Of a DNA stretch of 52,799 bases, positions 2,800-16,548 are shown in pieces. The position numbers and the translations under genes were made by a program. Where the stretch lies: contig JAKBUS010000009.1 in assembly GCA_021841585.1 (NCBI GenBank), positions 1 through 52,799 of the forward strand, written 5' to 3'. The stretch's first letter is position 1. The number at the start of each line of letters is the position of its first letter. The stretch is from Pseudomonadota bacterium. Lineage in GTDB: Bacteria > Pseudomonadota > Gammaproteobacteria > Acidiferrobacterales > Acidiferrobacteraceae. The notes under the pieces are model-generated. The model was not told the DNA's origin. It searched no databases and worked only from the letters and a program-made list of their open reading frames with translations.

Positions 2800-3048
2800 A
2801 TGGATATCGATCTCTATCATCGTCCCGATTGCCACCTCTGCGAGGACATGGCGCGCGCCTTGGCGCCCCTTGCGGCCGAGCTCGGTTTGATCGTCCACAC
2901 GATCGACATCGAAAGCGACCCGAACCTCGAGGCGCGCTATGGCCTCAAGGTCCCGGTATTGGTTCATGACGGCATCGAGATCTGCTGTTATCGCCTCGAT
3001 GAGGACGCCGTGCGCCGGGCTGCGGCCGCTAAAAAAGCGAGGCACTGA
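2800..3048 (+). CDS. Glutaredoxin/thioredoxin-like small redox protein
   Basis: 82 residues with a single thioredoxin-like fold. The CHLC active-site pair is at residues 11-14 after the first strand, and a VPVL cis-proline segment lies near residue 52. Size and layout match the glutaredoxin-like DUF836 family of small thiol-disulfide proteins; the substrate is unknown. It is divergent from cbbO (40 bases between starts), and its 3' end overlaps the 3' end of cbbQ by 20 bases on the opposite strand. It therefore sits antisense inside what would otherwise be a cbbQO operon. Whether it acts on CbbQO or Rubisco is not shown by the sequence. Confidence 0.85.
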
Positions 3049-3826
3049 GTTCATGGATGGCGGCCAGCATCTCCGGGTCGTCGGTGAGGGCTTGGGCGAT
3101 CGCGCCCCGGCACGCGGCGACCGGGCTTATACCCGACACCATGAGCTTGGCGGCATGCACGAGCAGGCGCGTGCTCGCGCCCTCCTCTAACCCGCTGCCC
3201 TTGAGATTGCGCGTCATCGCGGCAAACTTGACGAGCTTGCCGGCAATCTCGTCCCCCACGCCGCTTTCGTGATCCACTATGCGCTTCTCAAGATCGGCGG
3301 ATGGGTAGTCGAATTCGAGCGCCACGAAACGCTGGCGGGTGCTCTGCTTTAAGTCCTTGAGTACACTCTGATAGCCGGGGTTGTAAGAGATCGCCAAGGC
3401 AAATTCCGGGGGCGCGGACAATACCTCTCCGGTCTTCTCGACGGGCAGCACCCGTCGGTCATCGGCGAGGGGGTGGATGACGACCGTCGTATCCTTGCGG
3501 GCCTCGACGATCTCGTCCAGATAGCAAAGGCCGCCGATGCGTACCGCCCGCGCAAGCGGACCATCGACCCACGTCGTGTCTCCGGCGGTGATCAGATAGC
3601 GCCCCACGAGGTCGGAGGCGGTGAGATCGTCATGACAGGAGACGGTCACGAGCGGACGCTTCAGGCGCCATGCCATATGCTCCATGAAGCGCGTCTTTCC
3701 GCAGCCCGTGGGACCCTTCAGCAAAACAGGGATCTGATTGCGGTAGGCGCTCTCGAACAAAAGAATCTCGTCGCCTTGCGGCTCATAGTATGGCTCCTTC
3801 GTCACGAGAAGGGCTTCAGATTTCAC
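3029..3826 (-). CDS. cbbQ: CbbQ, AAA+ Rubisco activase ATPase (MoxR/NorQ family)
   Basis: About 265 residues. Opening segment [10 protein letters not shown], Walker [22 protein letters not shown], the Walker B region LCYLDEI, then SYNPGYQS and the sensor regions of MoxR-type ATPases. CbbQ forms a ring that uses ATP to remodel inhibited Rubisco together with CbbO. I chose the GTG start at 3826 because the sequence ACGAGGTGCC lies just upstream and because family members begin a few residues before EPYYEP. An ATG at 3934 would add 36 unsupported residues and has no ribosome-binding site. NorQ is the main alternative, disfavoured because no nitric oxide reductase gene is nearby. Rubisco genes are not in the window. 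Confidence 0.87.
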
Positions 3827-4333
3827 GGCACCTCGTTCCACATATCCCTCGTTCTTCGCGGCAGTGATACGGCTACAGTATGCCAAAAGCATCCGACAAT
3901 CCAAAAAGCCATTGACGGCCCGGTCACCGTCCATGCGCCATCGGCCATGAGTCCCTTGTCACATACGCCTACGCCAGTAGGCGCGCAATATTCAGGGGGC
4001 GCACGCATTTAAGGCATGGGGACCTTCGCTCCGCCCCGGGGCTGATCCGGGATTCATCGCTTGTCCTTGAGAATTGCGGTTGACGATCGCGGCATCTCTC
4101 TCCACAATGCAATCGAACATATTTGTTTATTACGAGAGCGTGGGGTCCCACCCGCGCGGGGCAGCACGGCCGGCCGAGCCGGCACTCGTCTACGCGGCAT
4201 CTTATGGCGCCATAGAAAGTTTCTAACCATGGCCCTAGCTCTTACGGGCTTCTTCGGCGTATAACGTGGACGGCCCCTCCCGGCGCGAGCCGTGGCTGGC
4301 TTTAGCGAACGCCACCCCTGAGGAGATCGCTTA
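3827..4333. other. Divergent intergenic region between cbbQ and qmoA
   Basis: About 500 bases with no convincing gene. A 67-codon frame at 4061-4264 has no recognisable domain and no good ribosome-binding site. The region must hold the promoters of cbbQ (leftward) and of the qmo operon (rightward). One sigma-70-like promoter is visible at 4080-4108, which would leave a leader of about 220 nt before qmoA. I saw no known riboswitch in it. Confidence 0.5.
4080..4108 (+). promoter_or_regulatory. Candidate sigma-70 promoter for the qmo operon
   Basis: TTGACG (4080-4085, five of six consensus bases), a 17-base spacer, then CACAAT (4103-4108, four of six). Orientation and position suit the qmoA operon. 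The -10 is weak, so this remains a candidate. Confidence 0.4.
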
Positions 4334-5617
4334 ATGGCGGACGTAGTTGCAACACATGAGACCATCGTGGTGGTCGGTGGCGGCATCAGCGGGATGACCG
4401 CGGCCGTCGAGGCCGCCGAAACCGGCAAGAACGTCATTCTGCTCGAACGAACGCCCTCTCTCGGGGGCCGCGTCAACCAGCTTTATAAGTATTTCCCGAA
4501 GTTATGCCATCCGACCTGCGGCATGGAGATCAACCTCCGCCGCCTACGCGCCAACAAGCGCATCAAGGTCCTGACCCTGGCCGAGGTCTCCAAGGTGGAG
4601 GGGCGCGCCGGTGATTACAAGATCTCCGTTACCCTCCATCCCCGCTACGTGAATGATCATTGCACCGCCTGCGGAGCCTGCGGCGCAGCGGTTTCCGCCG
4701 AAATTCCCAACCCCTTCAACTATGGAATGAGCCGCATGAAGGCCGCCTATCTGCCTTCGCTGATGGCTTATCCCCAGCGCTACGTCATCGACCCATCCAT
4801 ACTGGGAACTCCCGACGCCGAGAAGGCCAAAGAGGCCTGCAAGTATGGCGCGGTTGATCTCGACATGAAGGCCGAAGAACTTACCTTGAGCGCCGGCGCG
4901 GTGGTGTGGGCAACAGGCTGGCGCCCCTATGACGCCGGAAAGATTCAGCCGTACGGCTATGATCGCTTCGATAACGTCATTACGAGCGTCGAGTTCGAGC
5001 GGCTGTCGGATCCGCGTGGTCCCACGGGAGGGCGCATCGTCCGTCCGTCCGATGGCAAAGAGGCCAAGAATGTGGCGTTTATTCAGTGCGCCGGGTCTCG
5101 CGACCGCAATCACTTAAAGCACTGCTCGCGCATATGCTGCATGGCATCCCTGAAACAGACGACCTACATGCGTGAGCGTTTCGGCGACGAGGCGCAATCC
5201 ACGGTTTATTACATCGACATCCGCGCCATCGACCGCTTCGAGGATTTTTATCAGAAGGTGCAGGCCGATTCGACGGTGCGATTCGTGAAGTCCAAGGTGG
5301 CGAATATCACCGAGGACGAGGTGACGGGTGACGTCATATTGCATGGCGTCGATACCGAGGGTTACCACCGCTATGACAATCGCCATGACCTGTGCGTACT
5401 GGCGGTTGGTATGGAGCCAAGCGTGGACGTGAGGACTATCGCCGATGTCGCGGTCGATGCCAGCGGCTTTATCGAGATGGGTGCGACGGATGGCGGCCTG
5501 TTCGGTGCCGGGTGCGCGACCAACGCGCTCGATGTAAACCGATCGGTGCAAAGTGCCACGGCAAGTGTCTTGCGCGCCGTGCAGGTGGTGAACCGCGTGG
5601 CGAAGGCGGAGGGTTAG
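4334..5617 (+). CDS. qmoA: QmoA, HdrA-like FAD subunit of quinone-interacting oxidoreductase
   Basis: 427 residues. The FAD dinucleotide fold has GGGISG at residues 15-20 and TPSLGGR downstream. An HdrA-type cysteine segment, CAGSRDRNHLKHC then RICC, lies in the second half, and the C-terminus has GLFGAGCATNALDV. Residues 110-116 are CTACGAC, three cysteines of a ferredoxin motif without the usual fourth Cys-Pro. QmoA is an HdrA homologue that transfers electrons between quinone-side partners and APS reductase or related sulfur enzymes. The start is supported by GAGGAG nine bases upstream. It is the first gene of a tight four-gene operon (3 bases to qmoB). Gene order qmoA-qmoB separates it from canonical hdrA. 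Confidence 0.9.
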   Translation: MADVVATHETIVVVGGGISGMTAAVEAAETGKNVILLERTPSLGGRVNQLYKYFPKLCHPTCGMEINLRRLRANKRIKVLTLAEVSKVEGRAGDYKISVTLHPRYVNDHCTACGACGAAVSAEIPNPFNYGMSRMKAAYLPSLMAYPQRYVIDPSILGTPDAEKAKEACKYGAVDLDMKAEELTLSAGAVVWATGWRPYDAGKIQPYGYDRFDNVITSVEFERLSDPRGPTGGRIVRPSDGKEAKNVAFIQCAGSRDRNHLKHCSRICCMASLKQTTYMRERFGDEAQSTVYYIDIRAIDRFEDFYQKVQADSTVRFVKSKVANITEDEVTGDVILHGVDTEGYHRYDNRHDLCVLAVGMEPSVDVRTIADVAVDASGFIEMGATDGGLFGAGCATNALDVNRSVQSATASVLRAVQVVNRVAKAEG

Positions 5618-5620
5618 GAC

Positions 5621-7858
5621 ATGGCGGACATGAAGATCGGCGCTTACGTATGTCAGGGCTGCGGCCTGGGTGAGCGTCTAGATACCAAGGCCCTCACCCT
5701 GGTCGCGCAAAAAGAGGGCAAGGCGCACGTCGTGCGCGAGCACGAATTCCTGTGCAATGGCCAGGGCGTGGCGATGATCCAAAAGGACATCGACGAGGGC
5801 GTAAACCGCGTCGTGATCGGCGCGTGCTCGCGCCGCGCCAAGGCCGAGGCCTTCAGCTTCGAGAATGTCGCGGTGGCGCGCGTGAATCTGCGCGAACAGG
5901 TCATATGGTCGCAACCCGCCACTGAAGAGGCGCGCGAACTGACCCAGGAGATGGCCGCCGATTACATGCGCATGGGCTGCGCCGAGGCGAAAAAGGTCCA
6001 GGCCCCGATCCCGAATCCCGAGCACGGCACCAATCGGCGCGTGCTGGTGGTCGGCGGCGGCATTACCGGCATGACCGCGGCGCTCGAGGCCGCGCGCGCC
6101 GGCTATGATGTCCTGCTGGTGGAAAAGACCGGGGCCTTGGGTGGCTTCATGGCCAAGCTCCACAAGCGGATTCCGTACCGCGAGCCATTCGCCGATCCGC
6201 AGGCAACCGGCGTGGAGGCCTTGGCGGCGGCCGTGGCGCAGGAGTCCCGCATCACGGTGTTCCTCAATTCCACCACCACGCGTACGAGTGGCGCCCCAGG
6301 CCGCTTCAGTGTCGATATCACCACCGAAAGCGGCCAGACGCAGACTGAGAATGTGGGCGCCATCGTCATGGCGAGCGGCTTTACGCCCTATGACGCGGCG
6401 AAGCTCCCGGAGTTCGGCTACGGCAAGAGCCAAAACGTCGTCGACCAGGCGGGTCTCGAGGCATTGGCGCGCGCCGCCGCCGCCAAGGGCGAGCCGATGC
6501 GCCGACCTTCCGACGGGAAAGACATCAAGAGTGTGGTCTTCGTCCAGTGCGCCGGTCAGCGCGATGCGACCGGGACGCACCTCAAGTACTGTTCCGGCCA
6601 TTGCTGCAATACCAGCATGAAGCAGGCGATGTACTTCAAGGAACAGAACCCCGACATCGACACCGCCATCATCTATACGGATCTGCGCACGCCTGGCAAT
6701 GGCGAGGATTTCTACCGCAGCGCCCAAAGAAAGGGCGTGATCTTCACCAAGGGCAAGGTGGCGTCGGTGGATGTCAATTCGAGCGGCGCGGCCACCGTTC
6801 ATTTCCACGATCTTATTTTGGACGACAAGGCGGCGACCATGAAGGACGTCGATCTGGTCGTTCTCGCCACGGGCCAGGTGCCGAATTCCGGGGTCAATAT
6901 CGATATCCCTGCCGGTGCCGAAGACGTCGATGTGGCCAAGGCGGCTGAGCAGTCTGTGTCGGTCTTGAATCTTACCTATCGCCAGGGTCCGGACGTCCCG
7001 CAGCTCCGGTATGGCTTTACGGATTCGCACTTCATCTGCTTCCCGTACGAGACCCGCCGGACCGGCATTTATACCGCTGGACCGGTACGCCGGCCCATGG
7101 ATATCGCGCAGGCGGTGGAGGATGCCACCGGGGCGGCCCTGAAGGCGATACAGGCGGTCGAGAACGCCGGTCTCGGGCGCGCGGCGCATCCTCGCTCGGG
7201 CGACTTGAGCTATCCGACCTTTCGCCGCGAGGGCTGCACGCAGTGCAAGCGCTGTACGGTCGAGTGCCCATTTGGGGCGATCGACGAAGACGAGCAGCGC
7301 TACCCGCAGTTCAACGAAAGCCGCTGCCGGCGCTGTGGCACCTGCATGGGCGCGTGCCCGGTGCGTGTCATATCGTTTGAAAACTACTCAGTCGACAGTG
7401 TAGGCTCGCAGATCAAGGCCGTGGATGTCCCCGACGAGTTTTCGGAAAAACCACGCATCCTTCTGCTCGCCTGCGAAAACGATGCCTATCCCGCGCTCGA
7501 CATGGCCGGGGTGTCGGGACATACCTCGAGCGCGTTCATCCGGACCATACCTGTGCGCTGCCTTGGTTCTGTCAACATGATCTGGATCACCGACGCCCTG
7601 AACAGCGGCTATGATGGGGTGATGATGATGGGGTGCCGGCATGGCGACGAATATCAGTGCCATTTTGTGAAGGGATCGGAGCTTGCGAGCTATCGAATGA
7701 GCAAGATCGACGATACCCTGAAGAATCTGAACCTTGAGAAGGACCGTGTCCGGCTACTCGAGGTCGCCATCGCCGATATCAAGAGGGTTCCGGAGCTCAT
7801 CAATGATTACGCCGCCAAGATCCAGGAAATCGGCATGAGTCCGTTCAAGGGTTTCTAG
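5621..7858 (+). CDS. qmoB: QmoB, HdrA-like flavoprotein with two [4Fe-4S] clusters and MvhD-like C-terminal domain
   Basis: 745 residues, the usual QmoB length. The N-terminal HdrA domain has CQGCG at 11-15. FAD motif GGGITG is near residue 145. An HdrA cysteine motif (CAGQRD, then KYCSGHCC) is in the middle. A double ferredoxin domain near 538-580 has CTQCKRCTVECP and CRRCGTCMGACP. The last 140 residues resemble the MvhD delta subunit (LLACEND, then MMMGCRHGDEYQCHF). It forms the electron-transfer core with QmoA and hands electrons to the HdrC/HdrB pair encoded downstream. The ribosome-binding site is GGAGGG. No frameshift or missing motif was seen. Confidence 0.92.
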   Translation: MADMKIGAYVCQGCGLGERLDTKALTLVAQKEGKAHVVREHEFLCNGQGVAMIQKDIDEGVNRVVIGACSRRAKAEAFSFENVAVARVNLREQVIWSQPATEEARELTQEMAADYMRMGCAEAKKVQAPIPNPEHGTNRRVLVVGGGITGMTAALEAARAGYDVLLVEKTGALGGFMAKLHKRIPYREPFADPQATGVEALAAAVAQESRITVFLNSTTTRTSGAPGRFSVDITTESGQTQTENVGAIVMASGFTPYDAAKLPEFGYGKSQNVVDQAGLEALARAAAAKGEPMRRPSDGKDIKSVVFVQCAGQRDATGTHLKYCSGHCCNTSMKQAMYFKEQNPDIDTAIIYTDLRTPGNGEDFYRSAQRKGVIFTKGKVASVDVNSSGAATVHFHDLILDDKAATMKDVDLVVLATGQVPNSGVNIDIPAGAEDVDVAKAAEQSVSVLNLTYRQGPDVPQLRYGFTDSHFICFPYETRRTGIYTAGPVRRPMDIAQAVEDATGAALKAIQAVENAGLGRAAHPRSGDLSYPTFRREGCTQCKRCTVECPFGAIDEDEQRYPQFNESRCRRCGTCMGACPVRVISFENYSVDSVGSQIKAVDVPDEFSEKPRILLLACENDAYPALDMAGVSGHTSSAFIRTIPVRCLGSVNMIWITDALNSGYDGVMMMGCRHGDEYQCHFVKGSELASYRMSKIDDTLKNLNLEKDRVRLLEVAIADIKRVPELINDYAAKIQEIGMSPFKGF

Positions 7859-7867
7859 GAGGCACAA

Positions 7868-8491
7868 ATGGGCGATATCAATACGGCAATGACGGAGCAG
7901 TATCGCAACGACTTCCTGAAGGAAGTGGAGGCGAACGTCGAGGAAGGCCAATGGGTCAAGATGTGCATGCAGTGCGGGGTCTGCTCCGGCTCGTGCCCGC
8001 TCGGCCCCGCCTGGGAGCACCCTCCGCAGGAAATCTTTATGATGATCCGCGCCGGGCGCCGGGATGAGGTGTTGAAGAGTGAATCGATGTGGATGTGCAC
8101 CTCTTGCTACAACTGCATCGTGCGCTGCCCGCGCGAGCTGCCGATCACGCACATCATGCATGGCCTTGCCAACTACGCGCACAGGCTTGGGCTCGCCCCC
8201 AAGATGAACCCGACCCGGCGCTTTGCCAAGATGTTCTGGAAGAACTTGACGAAGTCGGGGCGTGTGAACGAGATCCAGCTATCCGTGGGGCTTTATTTCA
8301 TGGACGGATTCAAGACCGGGGTGGCGCGGGCATGGGCCATGAAGGATATCGGCCTTGGCATGCTGAAGACCGGCCGCCTGAATCCCTTGGGTTTCGTGAA
8401 CCACAAGGGTTGCAAGGACAAGAATGGCATTCATAAGATGCTAAAGAAGGCCCGGGAGATCGAGGATCGGCGCAAGGGCTTTGCCGCCTAA
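7868..8491 (+). CDS. hdrC: HdrC-like [4Fe-4S] subunit (takes the place of the QmoC iron-sulfur part)
   Basis: 207 residues with two complete [4Fe-4S] motifs: C33, C36, C39, C43 (CMQCGVCSGSCP) and C77, C80, C83, C87 (CTSCYNCIVRCP). There is no membrane segment, so this is not full-length QmoC, which carries a haem b membrane domain after a similar iron-sulfur part. HdrC passes electrons between HdrA-like subunits and HdrB. A strong GGAGG ribosome-binding site precedes the start, 9 bases after qmoB, and hdrB follows 11 bases downstream. This gives the QmoAB-HdrCB arrangement known from organisms lacking qmoC. Confidence 0.9.
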   Translation: MGDINTAMTEQYRNDFLKEVEANVEEGQWVKMCMQCGVCSGSCPLGPAWEHPPQEIFMMIRAGRRDEVLKSESMWMCTSCYNCIVRCPRELPITHIMHGLANYAHRLGLAPKMNPTRRFAKMFWKNLTKSGRVNEIQLSVGLYFMDGFKTGVARAWAMKDIGLGMLKTGRLNPLGFVNHKGCKDKNGIHKMLKKAREIEDRRKGFAA

Positions 8492-8502
8492 GAGGTGTTC
8501 GT

Positions 8503-9417
8503 ATGGCCAGAAAAGAGTATTCGTTCTACCCAGGCTGCTCGTCGGAGCGGCTGACATCCGCCTCGAATTACATGGTGTCGGTGGAGGCGATGTGCAAGAA
8601 GCTCGACGTCAAGCTAAACGAGATCCCCGACTGGAATTGCTGTGGCGCGTCCATTGGTTACGCCGAGGGTGGTGAATTGCCGCGCCACGTGATGAATGCG
8701 CGCAATCTCGCCATCTCCGAGCAGGCCAACAAGGGCCAGGATGTCGTGGCCACGTGCGCGGCCTGCTGGCTCGGGGCGAAGGAGACCAAGGATCGCCTTG
8801 CCGAGGATAGCAGTCTGCTGGCCGAGACCAACGAGGCCTTGCGCGAGGCCGGCATGAATCTCCAGTACAAGGGCGAGCAGGAAGTGCGCCACATGGTGGA
8901 GGTCCTGATCGAGGATCTGGGCTACGACGAGCTGAAAAAGCCGGTGGTAAAGTCACTCGAGGGCATCAAGTTCGCGGGCTACGTGGGGTGCCAGACGAAT
9001 CGCCCCTTTGGGATCGCCGGCGAGTCGTTTGAGAACCCGAAGTACCTCGACCGGCTTGTCGAGATCGTGGGCGGGGAGCCAATCGAGAAGTATGACCAAA
9101 AGGTGACCTGTTGCGGCGGGGCGCTCGCGTTCTCGGAGCCCGAGAAGAGCCAGGCCCAGATCAAAAAGATCATCGAGTCCGCCTATGACCATGGCGCCGA
9201 CATGATCGTGACCCCGTGTCCCGTGTGCCAGATGAACGTCGAGGTCTATCAGGGGCAGATCAACAAGCGCTACGGGACCAAGTTCAACATCCCCGTGACC
9301 TATTACAGTCAGTTGATGGCCGTGGCCTACGGCGGCAGCGCCAAGGAGGCGGGCCTGAACGGGCAGATCATACGCGCCCACAGGCTCGAGGAGATCGCCG
9401 CCAAGACGGCGCGCTGA
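8503..9417 (+). CDS. hdrB: HdrB-like subunit with two CCG (cysteine-rich) domains
   Basis: 304 residues. The first CCG domain has C12, C46-C47 and C85/C88 (CAACW). The second has cysteines near 163, CCGG near 203, and CPVC near 239. Both domains therefore keep the CX(n)CCGX(n)CXXC pattern that holds the non-cubane [4Fe-4S] clusters of heterodisulfide reductase HdrB. In methanogens this site reduces CoM-S-S-CoB; in sulfur oxidisers the partner is unknown, possibly a disulfide or protein-bound sulfur. Last gene of the qmo operon, followed 10 bases later by a strong hairpin. Ribosome-binding site GAGGTG. Confidence 0.9.
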   Translation: MARKEYSFYPGCSSERLTSASNYMVSVEAMCKKLDVKLNEIPDWNCCGASIGYAEGGELPRHVMNARNLAISEQANKGQDVVATCAACWLGAKETKDRLAEDSSLLAETNEALREAGMNLQYKGEQEVRHMVEVLIEDLGYDELKKPVVKSLEGIKFAGYVGCQTNRPFGIAGESFENPKYLDRLVEIVGGEPIEKYDQKVTCCGGALAFSEPEKSQAQIKKIIESAYDHGADMIVTPCPVCQMNVEVYQGQINKRYGTKFNIPVTYYSQLMAVAYGGSAKEAGLNGQIIRAHRLEEIAAKTAR

Positions 9418-9476: not shown

Positions 9477-9731
9477 CTACACCGGCCGGTCGCTCCCAGG
9501 CGTCGGGCTTTTTTCAGTGGGCAGCAGCAGCGAGGCGGCCGAGACGTCGAGGGCCGCCGCGATTCGCCCTATGCAGTCGATTCCGATGTTACGCCGACCC
9601 CGCTCCAGATCGCTGACATACGCGCGGTTCACGCCGCTCATGGTGGCGATATCGTCTTGCGTGAGTCCCCGGGCATGTCGGGCCCGTCGCAGGTTGATGG
9701 CAAGGTAAACCCGCTCGATGTTGCGCGTCAT
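9477..9731 (-). CDS. XRE-family helix-turn-helix regulator (small)
   Basis: 84 residues, nearly all one HTH_3 domain: ARGLTQDDIATMSGVN, then YVSDLERGRRN and the IGRIAAALDV helix. No effector domain is attached. Single-domain XRE proteins are usually DNA-binding repressors of nearby genes. It is divergent from a second XRE gene at 9803, with 71 bases between the two starts. No ribosome-binding site is evident; a TACAAT -10-like hexamer (complement of 9744-9749) lies so close to the start that the message would have a very short leader. Targets unknown. Confidence 0.8.
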   Translation of the reverse strand: MTRNIERVYLAINLRRARHARGLTQDDIATMSGVNRAYVSDLERGRRNIGIDCIGRIAAALDVSAASLLLPTEKSPTPGSDRPV

Positions 9732-9802: not shown

Positions 9803-10162
9803 ATGGACACACTGGCCAAGCGCCTGCGCTACGCCCGGGAGCGGATGGGCCTTACCCAATCCGAGCTCGCGAGGCGCGTGAAGCTTCGGCCGCAGGCCAT
9901 TCAGTTCATCGAGGCGGGCCATGTGCGCAGGCCGCGCAGCGTAGTGGAGATCGCCCGCGTCCTCGGGGTCAATGCCGAATGGCTGCTGCTCGGTGAGGGG
10001 GCAATCGACGTAGCCATCCGCGAGACGCGTGCCGGCTACGAAGGGGAGGTCGCCTTGAGTGACGAGGCGGTCACCGTGGCGCGGTTGTGGATGGAGCTGC
10101 CCCAGGGGCAGCGGGTGGCCATGAAGGAGACGCTCATGGCCTTGCTCAAGCTTCGTTCCTGA
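9803..10162 (+). CDS. XRE-family helix-turn-helix regulator
   Basis: 119 residues. The N-terminal HTH spans roughly residues 5-60 (RMGLTQSELARRVKL, then AIQFIEAG and the helix VVEIARVLGV), ending NAEWLLLGEG as in phage- and plasmid-type XRE repressors. The C-terminal 50 residues are helical with no recognised effector domain. It is divergent from the XRE gene at 9477-9731 and is followed by an amino-acid permease gene on the same strand. No phage genes are nearby. The target is unknown; self-regulation through the shared upstream region is the simplest guess. Confidence 0.8.
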   Translation: MDTLAKRLRYARERMGLTQSELARRVKLRPQAIQFIEAGHVRRPRSVVEIARVLGVNAEWLLLGEGAIDVAIRETRAGYEGEVALSDEAVTVARLWMELPQGQRVAMKETLMALLKLRS

Positions 10163-12173: not shown

Positions 12174-12265
12174 AAAGACCTGGGTCGTGCGCTCCCCTAT
12201 TCGCGTCCCTGCTCCTCCCTCATGAGGCTCGCGCCGCCAGCGGCAGGCTAGGCGCCCTGAAGGCC

Positions 12266-12772
12266 TCAATCCTTGTCGGCAGCCGGTTTCGAGCGAGCCT
12301 GCCCGGACAAGGCCTTTTCCAAGGCCGATCCGAGGTTACTGCCCAGGAAGGCCCCGAGCGCGGTCCCGACCAAAGGAAGGATGCCGCCCCACAAGCCAGT
12401 AGCGCCCCGCGACACGGCGGTCAGCCCCGTAAGGCCCAACTGAGCCTGCCCCGACACGGCCCCCGCCGCAAATCCGCCGCCAACGAGAAAACCGCTGCCC
12501 TTTAATGCCTCCTCGGCTTGCCTTGCCAACACCAAGAGGGTCGCTGCGTCGACGTCGAGCTTATCGGCCACCACGCGCAGCTGCTCGACCGTAATCGGCG
12601 TTTCACCCTTCTCCACCCTTGACCATGTCGACCCGGCCAGGCCGAGCGCCTCGGCGACCTGCGCCTGGGTGAGGTGGCGCCGGCGGCGGATCAGCGCCAA
12701 AAGATGCCCTAGAACGGCGTTCGATGTCGTCGCCATCCTCGGATTCTGATGGGATCCCGTATCTTCGCCCAT
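12266..12772 (-). CDS. XRE-type HTH protein with glycine-rich hydrophobic C-terminal hairpin
   Basis: 168 residues from the ATG at 12772. The N-terminal half is an XRE HTH (RRRHLTQAQVAEALGL, then STWSRVEKGETPI). The C-terminal half is glycine-rich and hydrophobic, with GGGFAAGAVSG and LVGTALGAFLGSNLG separated by a short turn, resembling a glycine-zipper membrane hairpin. That suggests a membrane-associated DNA-binding protein, which is unusual. It is divergent from a frameshifted small gene and from the glycine-zipper zinc-ribbon gene at 13324, across an AT-rich region (12773-12923). Convergent with ogt. Function unknown; a membrane-stress sensor is an inference. Confidence 0.75.
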   Translation of the reverse strand: MGEDTGSHQNPRMATTSNAVLGHLLALIRRRRHLTQAQVAEALGLAGSTWSRVEKGETPITVEQLRVVADKLDVDAATLLVLARQAEEALKGSGFLVGGGFAAGAVSGQAQLGLTGLTAVSRGATGLWGGILPLVGTALGAFLGSNLGSALEKALSGQARSKPAADKD

Positions 12773-12923
12773 AGCCCGTCCTACAAACCAGCAAAGAATG
12801 CAATATAGCAAAAATTGGGAATCTTATAAAATCTGATAATTACGTACTAATGACAGACATGCATGTGCTGCAAATATGTTGTATAGTCCGCTCCAGATCC
12901 AACGACCAGGGAGCGACATCCGT

Positions 12924-13207
12924 ATGAAAAACATGACAAGGCACGCGCCCAAATCCGCAGCCACCAACGCGGCCTCCCGCCGCTCATCCTGGACCTGCTC
13001 AAGCGATCTGGGCGGCGGACTTTCGATCATCATGGTGCGGTGCATCCGTCTTTCGACAACAAGGCACGCCAGCGGGTTGCGCACGAGGTCGGCCGCACCG
13101 CGGTGGCGCGGCTCCACGAATGCTGGAACGCCTTTGCCGTGCTTGACACGGCCAGTGGCTCGGTCATCACATGCGGCCATCAGTACCAAAAAATCCATCA
13201 ATCGTAG
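12924..13207 (+). pseudogene. Small conserved-looking gene broken by a 2-bp frameshift
   Basis: The ATG at 12924 or 12933 begins MKNMTRHA in one frame. The rest reads as a protein in another: codons from 12950 give QIRSHQRGLPPLILDLLK, then FDHHGAVHPSFDNKAR, EVGRTAVARLHECWNAF and SVITCGHQYQKIHQS, ending at the TAG 13205-13207. I recall bacterial small proteins of this layout (QRGxPPLIxD, DHHG, FDKKAR, VITxGHRYKRI). Removing one GC from the CACGCGCCC run at 12942-12950 would join MTRHA directly to QIRS. No classical -1 slippery heptamer is in the right phase, so a mutation or sequencing error is likelier than programmed shifting. Confidence 0.6.
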
Positions 13208-13323
13208 TTTTTAAGGTGGCCTGAATGGCTGTGGCAGTCGCAGCCGTTATCGGCGAGCGTCACAGGCCTTGCGGCTTGCACCGCGCCCCGGACTTATTGA
13301 ATCCTTTGGAGAATGAATCGACC

Positions 13324-13647
13324 ATGAACACATTGACATGCCCTCGTTGCCATACTAGTGATCACGTTACCGAAAATAGGACTGCGCGCGATAAGGGACG
13401 GCGCATCGGTGGAGTGGTAGGTGGCCTCGTCGGGGTGGCCGGGGTGGCAACCGGCGCCGTTGATGGCGCGGCCCTCGGCGCCGCAATGGGCTCCGTGGTC
13501 CCCGTGGCCGGCACGCTCATTGGAGCGGCGATAGGCGTCATCGGAGGGGGCCTCGCCGGCTTGACGCTAGGCACAAAGGCCGGTGAGGCGGTCGGAGGGC
13601 TCTTCGACTCCGGACACCTATGCCGGAAATGCGGATGGCATGGGTAA
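13324..13647 (+). CDS. Zinc-ribbon protein split by a glycine-zipper hydrophobic hairpin
   Basis: 107 residues from the ATG at 13324, which has GGAGAA about 12 bases upstream; a longer frame from 13225 has a poor N-terminus. Residues 6-9 are CPRC and the C-terminus carries CRKCGWHG, so two CxxC knuckles probably form one zinc ribbon. Between them lie about 70 residues of glycine-rich hydrophobic sequence (RIGGVVGGLVGVAG, AALGAAMGSVVPVAG, GGGLAGLTLG) that look like two glycine-zipper helices. The picture is a membrane hairpin with both ends clamped by zinc on one side. No known family function is recognised. Confidence 0.75.
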   Translation: MNTLTCPRCHTSDHVTENRTARDKGRRIGGVVGGLVGVAGVATGAVDGAALGAAMGSVVPVAGTLIGAAIGVIGGGLAGLTLGTKAGEAVGGLFDSGHLCRKCGWHG

Positions 13648-13711
13648 GTCACGCACCCAGCCGACAGGTGCGCGATCAAAATAAAATAAGACAATCTGAA
13701 GGGGAGGCGCC

Positions 13712-14233
13712 ATGAATGCCAGCAGCATGGAAAACTATCCGGGACTGCAATATATGGTGGTGGAAATCTTGGAGGAACTGGAGATCCCTTATCGCGTAAA
13801 AGAGGCCGGACGCACCTTTTTCCTTGTGGCAGGCGACAGCGGCACCCTGGAGTGCGAGATACAGGCCGATGATGAAAAGGACTGGCGGATTCTCGGGGTC
13901 ACCGTCGCCTTACCGACCCACGTACCCAAGACCCGTTTCGCGGAGGTGTCTGAATGGATCCTCCGAAGAAACTTCGGGCTGAAGCTCGGCGCCTTTCACC
14001 TCGACCTCGATGACGGGAACGTCCAATTTCGCCTCGGCGCGCTACTCGGGGACTCCCTTGCCACGACCGATATCGTTCGGTCCAACCTGCTTGCCGCCTT
14101 ACATGTCATAGACGGCTCGGTCTCCGAAATCATGAAAGTGGCCTTCAGCGAGCGCACCGTGCTGGAGGTCATGCAAGAGGCTGACAGACAGAAGGCCGAA
14201 GAGGAGGCCGCGCCGGGTACCTCGCTGCAGTAA
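13712..14233 (+). CDS. YbjN-domain protein
   Basis: 173 residues with the alternating alpha/beta pattern of YbjN/secretion-chaperone-like proteins: an N-terminal helix (MVVEILEELEIPY), strands around FFLVAGDSGTLECEI and WRILGVTVALPT, the segment EWILRRNFGLKLGAFHLDLDD, then a C-terminal helix with a charged tail. A strong GGGGAGG ribosome-binding site precedes it. YbjN proteins are cytoplasmic and linked to stress and motility regulation, with no known catalytic activity. The neighbours encode membrane proteins on the same strand (DUF445 and EcsC-like downstream, zinc-ribbon protein upstream). Confidence 0.7.
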   Translation: MNASSMENYPGLQYMVVEILEELEIPYRVKEAGRTFFLVAGDSGTLECEIQADDEKDWRILGVTVALPTHVPKTRFAEVSEWILRRNFGLKLGAFHLDLDDGNVQFRLGALLGDSLATTDIVRSNLLAALHVIDGSVSEIMKVAFSERTVLEVMQEADRQKAEEEAAPGTSLQ

Positions 14234-14342
14234 CGACAAGAAAACTCGCGCCGAGACACCCGTGTCCTTGCATTCTCAGCAAGCGCAAAACGCAGACCCA
14301 AAAATAATACCAGACATTTTTTGTACAAAGGGGGTGGAAGAC

Positions 14343-15626
14343 ATGAGCACAATCGCGACTGATCAGTCCGCTATGCAGGACCGCCACCGGCAAGTCGAAC
14401 TCCAAAAGACCAAGCGCTTGGCGCTCGGTGTCTTGATCATCGCCGCCGTTCTCTACGGAGCCGCGGTGACATTCGTAGCGCATTACCCGAACCTATCCTA
14501 TCTCAAAGCCTTGAGCGAGGCCGCTATGGTCGGCGCGCTTGCGGACTGGTTCGCGGTCGAGGCGCTATTTCGTCATCCCCTCGGCCTGAAGATCCCACAC
14601 ACGCGCATCCTGCCACGAAACCAGGAACGGCTGGGCGACAATCTGGGGGCGTTCATTCAAAGTCGCTTTCTCGCGACCGATAAGATCGTGGATGCCATCA
14701 AGGCCTTTGGGCCGACCGGCCATGCGATTCGGTGGTTGCTAAAAGCGGGAAATCAACAGGCGATCGCCCATACCGCCGGCCAGCTCATCTCCTATGTGAT
14801 CGACACCCTGGACGAACCGCGCGTTCAGAATGACCTGCGCGCCTTCGCGACTGAGCAACTTGCCAAACTGGACCTCGCCGCGGTCGCCGCCCGCGGGCTT
14901 GCCGCCATGAAAGCGAGCGACGAACATCAGGCGCTCCTCGACGCAGGCATGGATCGGCTCCAGGCGCTTCTTGCCAAAGACTCCGTGCGCCGGGCCGTAA
15001 TCACGAATATCGCGAAGGCGCTCACGCTTGTCCCGGCCGGCATCGATGTCATTTTTAGCTCCTACGCCCAGAAAAAGCTTTACTCAACGATCGAGCAGGG
15101 ACTGCAGGAGGTCCGCGCGCATCACGATCACCCCATGCGCCAGTGGCTCTCCGAGACCGTCGATGAACTCATGCGTGACCTCGGGCACGATGGCCCCCTC
15201 AGGGCTAGCCTGAGTGAGGCCCTGGGCCGGTGGGTACAGCATGCCGACATGCAGGCCTATATCGGCGCATTGTGGCCGACCGTGCGTGATTGGGTTCGCG
15301 CCGACCTGGGCCGTAGCGAATCGCTCATACGCACCCGCGTGGCCGATGCCGCCGATCGGATCGCGCAAGGCCTTTCAGGGAACGCCGCGTTCATCGCGTG
15401 GCTTGATGGGGCGATCCTGGCCGCGGCGCCCGACCTCATCGGGACCTATCGGACAAAGATCGGCGACTTCATCGCCCGCGAGGTCAAAAGCTGGAACGCC
15501 AAGCACTTGGTCGAAGAGATCGAGGGCTATATCGGCCCCGACCTGCAATACATTCGGCTAAACGGCGCGCTCGTGGGCGGCCTCGTGGGGCTCACGATCT
15601 TTGTGCTGACAAAGTGGCTCCACTAG
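14343..15626 (+). CDS. DUF445-family membrane protein
   Basis: 427 residues from the ATG at 14343, which follows GGGGGTGGAAGAC. One hydrophobic segment near the N-terminus (LALGVLIIAAVLYGAAVTF) is followed by the diagnostic ALADWFAVEALFRHPLG, IPHTRILPRNQERLG and a long helical middle. A second membrane segment closes the C-terminus (VGGLVGLTIFVLTKWL). This is the YjiN/DUF445 family of inner-membrane proteins, whose biochemical role is not established. It is the fourth rightward gene of the accessory block and ends 51 bases before the EcsC-like gene. Confidence 0.82.
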   Translation: MSTIATDQSAMQDRHRQVELQKTKRLALGVLIIAAVLYGAAVTFVAHYPNLSYLKALSEAAMVGALADWFAVEALFRHPLGLKIPHTRILPRNQERLGDNLGAFIQSRFLATDKIVDAIKAFGPTGHAIRWLLKAGNQQAIAHTAGQLISYVIDTLDEPRVQNDLRAFATEQLAKLDLAAVAARGLAAMKASDEHQALLDAGMDRLQALLAKDSVRRAVITNIAKALTLVPAGIDVIFSSYAQKKLYSTIEQGLQEVRAHHDHPMRQWLSETVDELMRDLGHDGPLRASLSEALGRWVQHADMQAYIGALWPTVRDWVRADLGRSESLIRTRVADAADRIAQGLSGNAAFIAWLDGAILAAAPDLIGTYRTKIGDFIAREVKSWNAKHLVEEIEGYIGPDLQYIRLNGALVGGLVGLTIFVLTKWLH

Positions 15627-15677
15627 ACGTGCGTGAACCTAGTTTTTACGAACGGGCAGGCAGCGAGGAGATCGGTC

Positions 15678-16442
15678 ATGAACGAAGAAGAGAGCATAAA
15701 GAGTCAACTGGGCGCGGCGGGCCGGGAGTACCAAGAGCTCGGCGGCTGGGCGGCCTTTCGATCTGGCGAATGGCTTTTTATGCTCATCCGCAAATCCTTC
15801 ACCAATTACTGGGAGCGCGCTAATGCCGAGTACTTCCAGCAAAAGTACGGCACAATGGACCCGGACGCTCTGGCCAGAAAATTGACCTCCGTGGCTGCGA
15901 AGAACGCCGCTCTTCTGGGTGGCGCCGCGGGCGCCCTGGTCTCCGCAGACGAGATTACCGCCCTTGTTACCGGCGCCGAGGGAGGTGTCGGTTTGCCTGC
16001 GAATCTCGCCGTGGCAGCGACTGTCATCGGTGGCGAGGCCATACTGCTGATGCGACTCCAGCTTCAGCTTCTTGCGAATCTCGGCAAGATCTATGGCGTC
16101 CCTTTGGACCCCAATGACCCGGAAGACATCCTGACGATTATTGCCTTTGCGCTAGGCGGGGCGGCCGCTGAAGCCGCGGGCAACGCCGGCATGAAGATCG
16201 GGGGGAGGCTTGCGGGGTACGGCGTGAAGGAGACCTTCAAGAAAGAAACCCTTGCCGCATTAAAGCGCATAGCCGCAAAGGCCGGTGTGCGCCTCCTTAA
16301 GCGGCAGCTCGTCAACGCCACGATCCCCGTGGTTTCCATTATTCTTGGGGGGAGTTGGAATTTCACAGCGACCAAAACCATGGCGCATGTCGCGCGCCGC
16401 CATTTCGTCGGCCGGCACAAGTCCGGTGGTGGCCATCACTGA
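15678..16442 (+). CDS. EcsC-family protein
   Basis: 254 residues from the ATG at 15678, chosen for its GAGGAGATC ribosome-binding site. An amphipathic N-terminal region is followed by a glycine- and alanine-rich hydrophobic core (LLGGAAGALVSADEIT, then GLPANLAVAATVIGGEAILLMR) and by LANLGKIYGVPLDPNDPED, which is typical of EcsC proteins. The C-terminal part has VVSIILGGSWNFTATKTMAHVARRHF, also a family landmark. EcsC is named from a Bacillus ABC-transporter operon and its function is poorly understood; no ABC transporter is beside it here. The last gene of the accessory block; alkA follows after 106 bases. Confidence 0.78.
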   Translation: MNEEESIKSQLGAAGREYQELGGWAAFRSGEWLFMLIRKSFTNYWERANAEYFQQKYGTMDPDALARKLTSVAAKNAALLGGAAGALVSADEITALVTGAEGGVGLPANLAVAATVIGGEAILLMRLQLQLLANLGKIYGVPLDPNDPEDILTIIAFALGGAAAEAAGNAGMKIGGRLAGYGVKETFKKETLAALKRIAAKAGVRLLKRQLVNATIPVVSIILGGSWNFTATKTMAHVARRHFVGRHKSGGGHH

Positions 16443-16548
16443 TCGAGGACAGACGCTCTTGCGTGTTGGTGATGAGGGCGGGACCGACGGCCGCCGCCCC
16501 GCGTCGACGCGTACTTGCGCTGGGGCAAAATTACGTTAACCTCGCTAG

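Follow-up and report, generated by a model that had tools for sequence, protein, structure and literature searches.

A 52,799-nucleotide stretch of DNA (hereafter, the window) from contig JAKBUS010000009.1 of an Acidiferrobacteraceae genome (assembly GCA_021841585.1; 2.57 Mb in 124 contigs) contains a block of five intact open reading frames (ORFs) and one frameshifted gene at 12266–16442, with an ogt-type and an alkA-type gene on either side (ORF calls, Pfam and NCBIfam). We read this region as a composite acquired insert at a variable site, in which a cassette that recurs across the genus is joined by two genes found beside it only in this genome. The cassette encodes an XRE regulator with a hydrophobic C-terminal tail, a small protein (the frameshifted gene), a protein with a glycine zipper between the halves of a zinc ribbon (ZnGly), and a YbjN-like protein; the two additional genes encode a DUF445 protein and an EcsC-like protein. 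The cassette may work as an accessory switch made of a repressor, a chaperone and a membrane protein, and we give this reading an even chance of being right. We hold its anatomical part with high confidence and its mechanistic part with low to moderate confidence. The switch reading builds on the insertion, the genus-level recurrence, a conserved spacer motif, the chaperone-like fold of a structure model, and the plasmid and recombination-gene setting of ZnGly relatives.

Homologues of the tailed XRE regulator (49–69% identity) were found in five of 13 congeners, and homologues of ZnGly (69–79% identity) in three. YbjN-like genes were looked for within the five XRE loci, and in four of these such a gene adjoins XRE. 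Three congeners (G005, G008 and G011) carry XRE, ZnGly and YbjN-like genes in the order and orientation of the window; another (G004) has XRE and YbjN-like genes without ZnGly; and in the last (G006) the contig ends after XRE and the small gene, with no ZnGly match genome-wide. All five loci lie away from the ogt–alkA locus of their own genome. Labelled by eye from translations, their flanks include a transglutaminase-like gene and hydrogenase-type subunits in G004 and G008, and phosphoesterase, WYL-like, GST-like and MFS-like genes in G011. Judged by sequence, the XRE-tail, small, ZnGly and YbjN-like genes are a divergent cassette, complete or partial, in these five congeners. Pairwise dN/dS values from a Nei–Gojobori script were 0.12–0.27 for YbjN (10 pairs), 0.10–0.34 for ZnGly (6 pairs) and 0.22–0.56 for XRE (15 pairs), ratios that are rough because dS exceeded 1 in 17 of the 31 pairs. 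About 0.4 kb past the YbjN-like gene of G011 (L045 6939–7481) there is also a tandem repeat that reads as MQRDQDAERSGCREIR over and over, a few of its bases being unread.

DUF445 and EcsC genes were absent from the fetched stretches of the five congener loci, those of G005 and G006 being short contigs. Outside the genus, we searched 25 neighbourhoods by profile: 17 around Pfam EcsC matches and eight around weak YbjN or EcsC matches, leaving out a weak EcsC match in G094 that reads through three stops. None contained a second block family, several of the stretches ending at contig edges, and the YbjN profile, built from the window and four congener proteins, sees ordinary YbjN weakly. The cassette was likewise not found outside the genus in the samples searched. 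When genome_contigs was scanned with YbjN patterns, the contigs of G005 and G011 alone came back and the copies with about 50% identity were missed; more distant cassettes may therefore exist. On plasmids, among the matches listed (20 of 29 records), block DNA matched only in short pieces inside DUF445. We thus rejected the block as a single unit beyond this genome, no second family having appeared in the 25 neighbourhoods. The sequence-only reading had asked whether the gene order recurs: that of XRE-tail, small gene, ZnGly and YbjN does so in congeners, but not together with DUF445 and EcsC, and not, in the samples searched, outside the genus. The five-gene block is therefore partly a chance neighbourhood, and our analysis separates the recurring cassette from it.

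We searched for alkA in the 13 congeners and read the loci of six of the seven matches, leaving out a partial match in G012. In all six, ogt and alkA are adjacent with no block gene between them, and a permease-like gene upstream and NRAMP-like and ntrB-like genes downstream are common to all. The ogt–alkA gap measures 4375 bp in the window versus 227–911 bp in the congeners. In three of them (850, 862 and 911 bp) it carries genes for a PhdYefM antitoxin and a PIN protein (L011 12456–13081, also L012 and L013); the others measure 298, 227 and 341 bp, two with PIN remnants (E 9e-6 and 0.014) and the third with none detected. The pair and the weak remnants mark the gap as a turnover site for small accessory genes. 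Blastn similarity of the window gap to the congener gaps ends at 12180 and resumes at 16508. The guanine-plus-cytosine content of the block is 0.60–0.64 in 1-kb windows, and several other windows are equally low (e.g., 3000–9000). Since the congener gaps lack the block and hold the toxin–antitoxin pair or shorter DNA, the block is, on this comparison, an insertion at a variable chromosomal site. The repair genes first noted on its flanks are indeed of ogt and alkA type, but a functional link to alkylation repair was rejected, as the two genes adjoin without the block in all six congeners; by the same comparison, these flanks are incidental.

A conserved motif, TGC(A/G)-N5-TGCA-N(9-10)-TA(G/T)(A/G)GT, is present in all six cassette spacers, whose mean column identity is 52%. 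Scanned with N of 9–11, the pattern occurred once in the window and, apart from the cassette copies, nowhere in 11 congener loci (164,960 bases) or in 25 other loci (376,674 bases); because those six copies also served to define it, the scan shows specificity, not function. Its first half overlaps a −35-like position, 17–18 bases before a −10-like hexamer, and the motif may be a repressor site. The sigma-70-like promoter candidate of the XRE gene itself is weak (two sites found versus 0.9 expected in the consensus scan). The C-terminal tail of the regulator is conserved among homologues, and the protein has three GxxxGxxxG motifs against a shuffle mean of 0.4 (p = 0.014; each protein was compared with 2000 shuffles of itself). 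Searching plasmids with the XRE-tail of the window gave nothing useful.

ZnGly fits the earlier description of a split zinc ribbon with a glycine zipper: CPRC lies at the N-terminal end, CRKC at the C-terminal end and the zipper between them, and the gene is intact. The protein has 11 GxxxGxxxG motifs versus a shuffle mean of 1.2 (p < 0.0005). Its zipper matches phrog_34863 (4.3e-11) and the tail-associated lysin phrog_1047 (1.8e-9) in PHROGs; the likeness to these phage tail and lysin proteins is the zipper, whereas the profiles are about 1000 residues long and match mainly over the zipper stretch. When 331 genomes of the class were searched by profile, seven matches besides this genome were returned. 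Four have CxxC and CxxCG at their ends with a zipper between; three were dropped, two without a split ribbon and one (L123) running beyond the stretch. All four cysteines and nine glycines of the zipper stretch are invariant in the eight aligned proteins, while identity of split-ribbon proteins elsewhere to ZnGly is 31–36%. The gene next to the four outside-genus matches is DUF932 in three and YqaJ in one. One outside-genus protein of the ZnGly type, searched on plasmids, matched five records, of which we opened four. DUF932 adjoins the ZnGly-type gene on Pseudomonas putida pGRT1 and on a P. veronii plasmid; on Allochromatium pALVIN02 a short hypothetical gene follows, then RecT and exonuclease genes; and a Burkholderia replicon has no annotation at that place. 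Split-ribbon zipper proteins of about 107–124 amino acids, annotated as hypothetical on the plasmids, thus occur beside DUF932 or YqaJ or near RecT and exonuclease genes at L124–L127 and at the plasmid loci L129–L131. The neighbour of ZnGly in the window is YbjN-like, in contrast to the DUF932, YqaJ or short hypothetical gene outside the genus.

As a control against over-reading zippers, we inspected six weak ZnGly matches in order-level relatives, and none of the printed glycine-rich ORFs had a CxxC pair. The ZnGly of the window on plasmids, and ZnGly alignments in viral_contigs, gave nothing useful, and the literature passages found on glycine zippers together with zinc ribbons concern other systems. 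ZnGly, a hypothetical protein, now joins a larger group of split-ribbon glycine-zipper proteins encoded next to DUF932 and recombination genes.

The YbjN-like protein scored 21.6 bits (E 2.8e-4) against YbjN (PF10722), where the gathering cut-off is 22, and its assignment is therefore borderline. Its structure model (pLDDT 66.4), which has an extra strand and a C-terminal helix, matched DR1245 in VIA with Z 12.2 (rmsd 4.9, 141 aligned), followed by E. coli YbjN (Z 10.8), AmyR (Z 10.4), BacA (8q8o, Z 8.8) and many type III chaperones. Rows 1–27 (Z 12.2–8.2) are YbjN-type or secretion-chaperone entries except for the uncharacterised 3cxj, counting 2plg as a chaperone-fold entry by its listing in a passage of PMC10948618; the first clearly unrelated row has Z 8.0. 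The model matches the YbjN/type III-chaperone fold. The protein thus resembles E. coli YbjN, Erwinia AmyR and Deinococcus DR1245 in predicted fold, but it differs from the family in its identity of only 10–14%, its Pfam score just under the cut-off and its place beside ZnGly and a tailed XRE gene. Passages in the literature describe chaperone-like folds for YbjN-family proteins (PMC3575483, PMC5398634) and possible chaperone activity for DR1245, a partner of DdrB (PMC3575483); another groups a chaperone family of immune gene systems related to ADP-ribose together with the YbjN superfamily (PMC9503650). Searches with the YbjN-like protein on plasmids and in viral_contigs gave nothing useful, and our literature search returned no paper joining YbjN and DUF445.

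A cassette that holds a repressor, a chaperone fold and a zipper membrane candidate suggests a switch that damage to the membrane or the arrival of foreign DNA would trigger. In such a switch, the tailed XRE would repress the divergent promoter through the TGCA-N5-TGCA operator, and this promoter would drive ZnGly and the YbjN-type chaperone, and once also the now-decayed small gene. ZnGly would most likely form a glycine-zipper hairpin of helices that is embedded in the inner membrane or attached to it and whose two ends close one cytosolic zinc ribbon; hydropathy makes an association with the membrane plausible for ZnGly and DUF445, and less plausible for the XRE tail. The switch would be released when the membrane is damaged or foreign DNA enters, and up to that point the chaperone might keep ZnGly or the XRE tail bound. 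The DUF445 and EcsC-like genes, which this genome alone would have gained downstream, may encode membrane cargo expressed together with the cassette; gaps of 64, 109 and 51 bp separate the four intact rightward genes. Repression, topology, partners, trigger and benefit are what we infer here, and the membrane-stress response suggested earlier for the block would stand on the same footing. A bolder version, which we consider unlikely as a whole, is an undescribed accessory switch in which a split-ribbon zipper membrane protein, from a family also present on plasmids next to recombination genes, is kept in check by a chaperone of type III-secretion fold and a tailed XRE, the whole serving as a sensor or pore in the membrane that responds to invading DNA or to a damaged envelope. 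Should repressor, chaperone and zipper protein indeed be linked, the split-ribbon glycine-zipper set would gain a testable role.

Several observations weigh against an acquired switch of this kind, besides the rough dN/dS ratios. The cassette is loose, with ZnGly missing in G004, the small gene in G008 and a ZnGly match in G006. The spacer motif was defined post hoc on the very copies that carry it, tightening it to TTGCA left matches in the G005, G006 and G011 copies alone, and the consensus promoter scan did not list the motif site. The ZnGly model is poor (pLDDT 52.6), making its layout of a strand, helices at 20–55 and 60–93, and a strand indicative only. The other four of the five YbjN-like models have pLDDT of 48.6–55.9, and Foldseek gave no match with E < 0.001 for the YbjN-like model (best E 0.011). 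Inspection of the window ORF list by eye revealed no integrase, and the only repeat pair spanning the insert is an imperfect one of 26 nt with 77% identity (12068 and 16476), one of 22 short families in 4.8 kb.

Alternatively, unrelated accessory genes may have piled up by chance at a tolerant intergenic site with no functional link, an explanation that is unlikely but has to be taken seriously. It would account for a site that holds a toxin–antitoxin pair or shorter DNA in congeners, for DUF445 and EcsC being unlinked elsewhere, for a small gene decayed or missing in five of six copies and for the missing ZnGly of G004; what it leaves unexplained is that G005, G008 and G011 keep XRE-tail, ZnGly and YbjN in order and orientation elsewhere in their genomes, with a conserved spacer motif and dN/dS well below 1.

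An anti-phage or exclusion system, in which a repressor-controlled membrane protein depolarises or seals the membrane on entry of foreign DNA, appears improbable. The RecT, exonuclease and DUF932 genes beside ZnGly relatives, an Abi gene and RecB-like nuclease genes neighbouring relatives of the small gene, the toxin–antitoxin genes at the congener site and the match of the EcsC-like protein to the PADLOC candidate PDC-S29 would all fit it. However, EcsC lies outside the recurring cassette, the PADLOC matches of XRE are to models that bear a helix-turn-helix (HTH), and ZnGly, YbjN-like and DUF445 match no PADLOC model. Least probable, and to our minds very doubtful, is an envelope-stress module of the Psp kind resembling the P. 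aeruginosa bac operon (BacA and the PspA-like BacB), whose chaperone-fold protein is believed to act as a regulator of membrane partners. BacA is among the fold matches, and a passage in PMC10948618 suggests that this protein, of the same kind of fold, negatively controls its own operon; the likeness to bac is a chaperone-fold protein in an operon tied to membrane partners. Yet BacA is a DUF2170 protein, not YbjN, and no PspA match was found among the proteins of the block by Pfam, a scan that did not extend to the congener flanks. Compared with these alternatives, we favour the repressor–chaperone–membrane-protein switch carried on a composite insert.

Features of the ogt–alkA insert in the window
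Feature	Position	Strand	Evidence
Inserted segment	12181..16507		Without similarity to the congeners' ogt–alkA gap (blastn)
XRE regulator, 168 aa, glycine-zipper-like hydrophobic C-terminal tail	12266..12772	-	HTH_31 48.5 bits
Candidate sigma-70-like promoter of XRE gene	12802..12830	-	Consensus scan, 9/12 matches
Candidate operator/promoter TGCA-N5-TGCA-N9-TATAGT of the rightward genes	12860..12887	+	Spacer comparison, 6/6 cassettes
Small frameshifted gene, body frame	12887..13210	+	Comparison with G011 copy; plasmid relatives weakly DUF4258-like
ZnGly, 107 aa, zinc-ribbon halves CxxC...CxxCG around glycine zipper	13324..13647	+	Sequence, shuffles, alignment
YbjN-like protein, 173 aa, predicted type III-chaperone fold	13712..14233	+	Pfam just below cut-off; structure model
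DUF445 protein, second of the genome, outside the recurring cassette	14343..15626	+	Pfam 307.9 bits
Diverged EcsC-like protein, outside the recurring cassette	15678..16442	+	EcsC 21.5 bits; PADLOC PDC-S29 E 1.2e-6

Families were assigned with Pfam, PADLOC, NCBIfam and PHROGs profiles. ORF calls confirmed five intact genes and a broken one, and of the families first proposed, XRE and DUF445 held firmly, YbjN was borderline and EcsC is at best represented by a diverged relative. PADLOC models, scanned without system rules, matched XRE (HTH-bearing models, best HTH_VI at 2.5e-10) and the EcsC-like protein (PDC-S29/S30), with no match for ZnGly, YbjN-like, DUF445 or the small gene. Searches against PDB sequences gave nothing useful.

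The DUF445 protein is a full member of its family (PF04286, profile positions 2–367 of 368). Of 59 other relatives, 18 have matches, all 13 congeners being among them, and since a copy with 35% identity lies on another contig of this genome, that of the block is an extra one. The EcsC-like protein falls short of the gathering cut-off of EcsC (PF12787; 21.5 bits at residues 123–246 versus 30.4) and is therefore a diverged relative at best; its likeness to Pfam EcsC and to PDC-S29/S30 concerns its C-terminal half. PDC-S29 appears as one table entry in PMC11514479, and the listed papers on EcsC as a domain seem for the most part unrelated. The zippers announced in three proteins were upheld in ZnGly and the XRE tail but not clearly here: the EcsC-like protein has no GxxxGxxxG and five GxxxG (p = 0.33 versus shuffles), and its raised count of small-xxx-small-xxx-small (15, p = 0.03) is equalled by the control AlkA (17, p = 0.022). 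No match to it was found in 59 relatives, nor by scanning genome_contigs for patterns, nor among plasmids or viral_contigs; three weak ones were found in 397 other genomes of the phylum. Pfam EcsC itself is present in 16 of 273 other genomes of the class, at 17 places, and none of these neighbourhoods contained DUF445, XRE-tail, ZnGly or this type of YbjN by our own profiles.

Only G011 carries the small gene uninterrupted; its frame is broken in the window, G005 and G006, the G004 copy is shortened and has a stop, and no match was found in G008. The cassette therefore persists without it. By comparison with the G011 copy, its body frame in the window is open and out of frame with the upstream ATG region. 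The gene of the window has no Pfam match, two of three tested relatives match DUF4258 below its cut-off, and a search of phages with the intact protein gave nothing useful. We considered a type II toxin–antitoxin system of XRE and a DUF4258-like toxin and rejected it, the small gene being divergent from XRE and frameshifted in the window. Relatives occur in 13 plasmid records, of which we opened nine, one without annotation; in six of the eight annotated records, the relative has integrase, transposase, Abi or RecB-like nuclease genes at most 3 kb away.

Further observations concern single loci. On Polaromonas plasmid pPNAP04 (L109 3028–3294 and 4691–5146), a small-gene relative and a YbjN-domain gene (56.7 bits) are about 1.4 kb apart, a pairing found in this one of the eight annotated records. 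On Thauera plasmid pTX1 (L108 2666–3255), two integrases flank an HTH gene and the small DUF4258-like gene that it overlaps, a toxin–antitoxin-like layout. In G003, alkA matches as two overlapping pieces (L016 11366–11794 and 11896–12510), as if broken or partly duplicated. Upstream of the permease-like gene of the window, two divergent small HTH genes (9477–9731 and 9803–10162) have counterparts of 77–93% identity in four of the six congener loci, while L013 spans the place yet lacks the pair.

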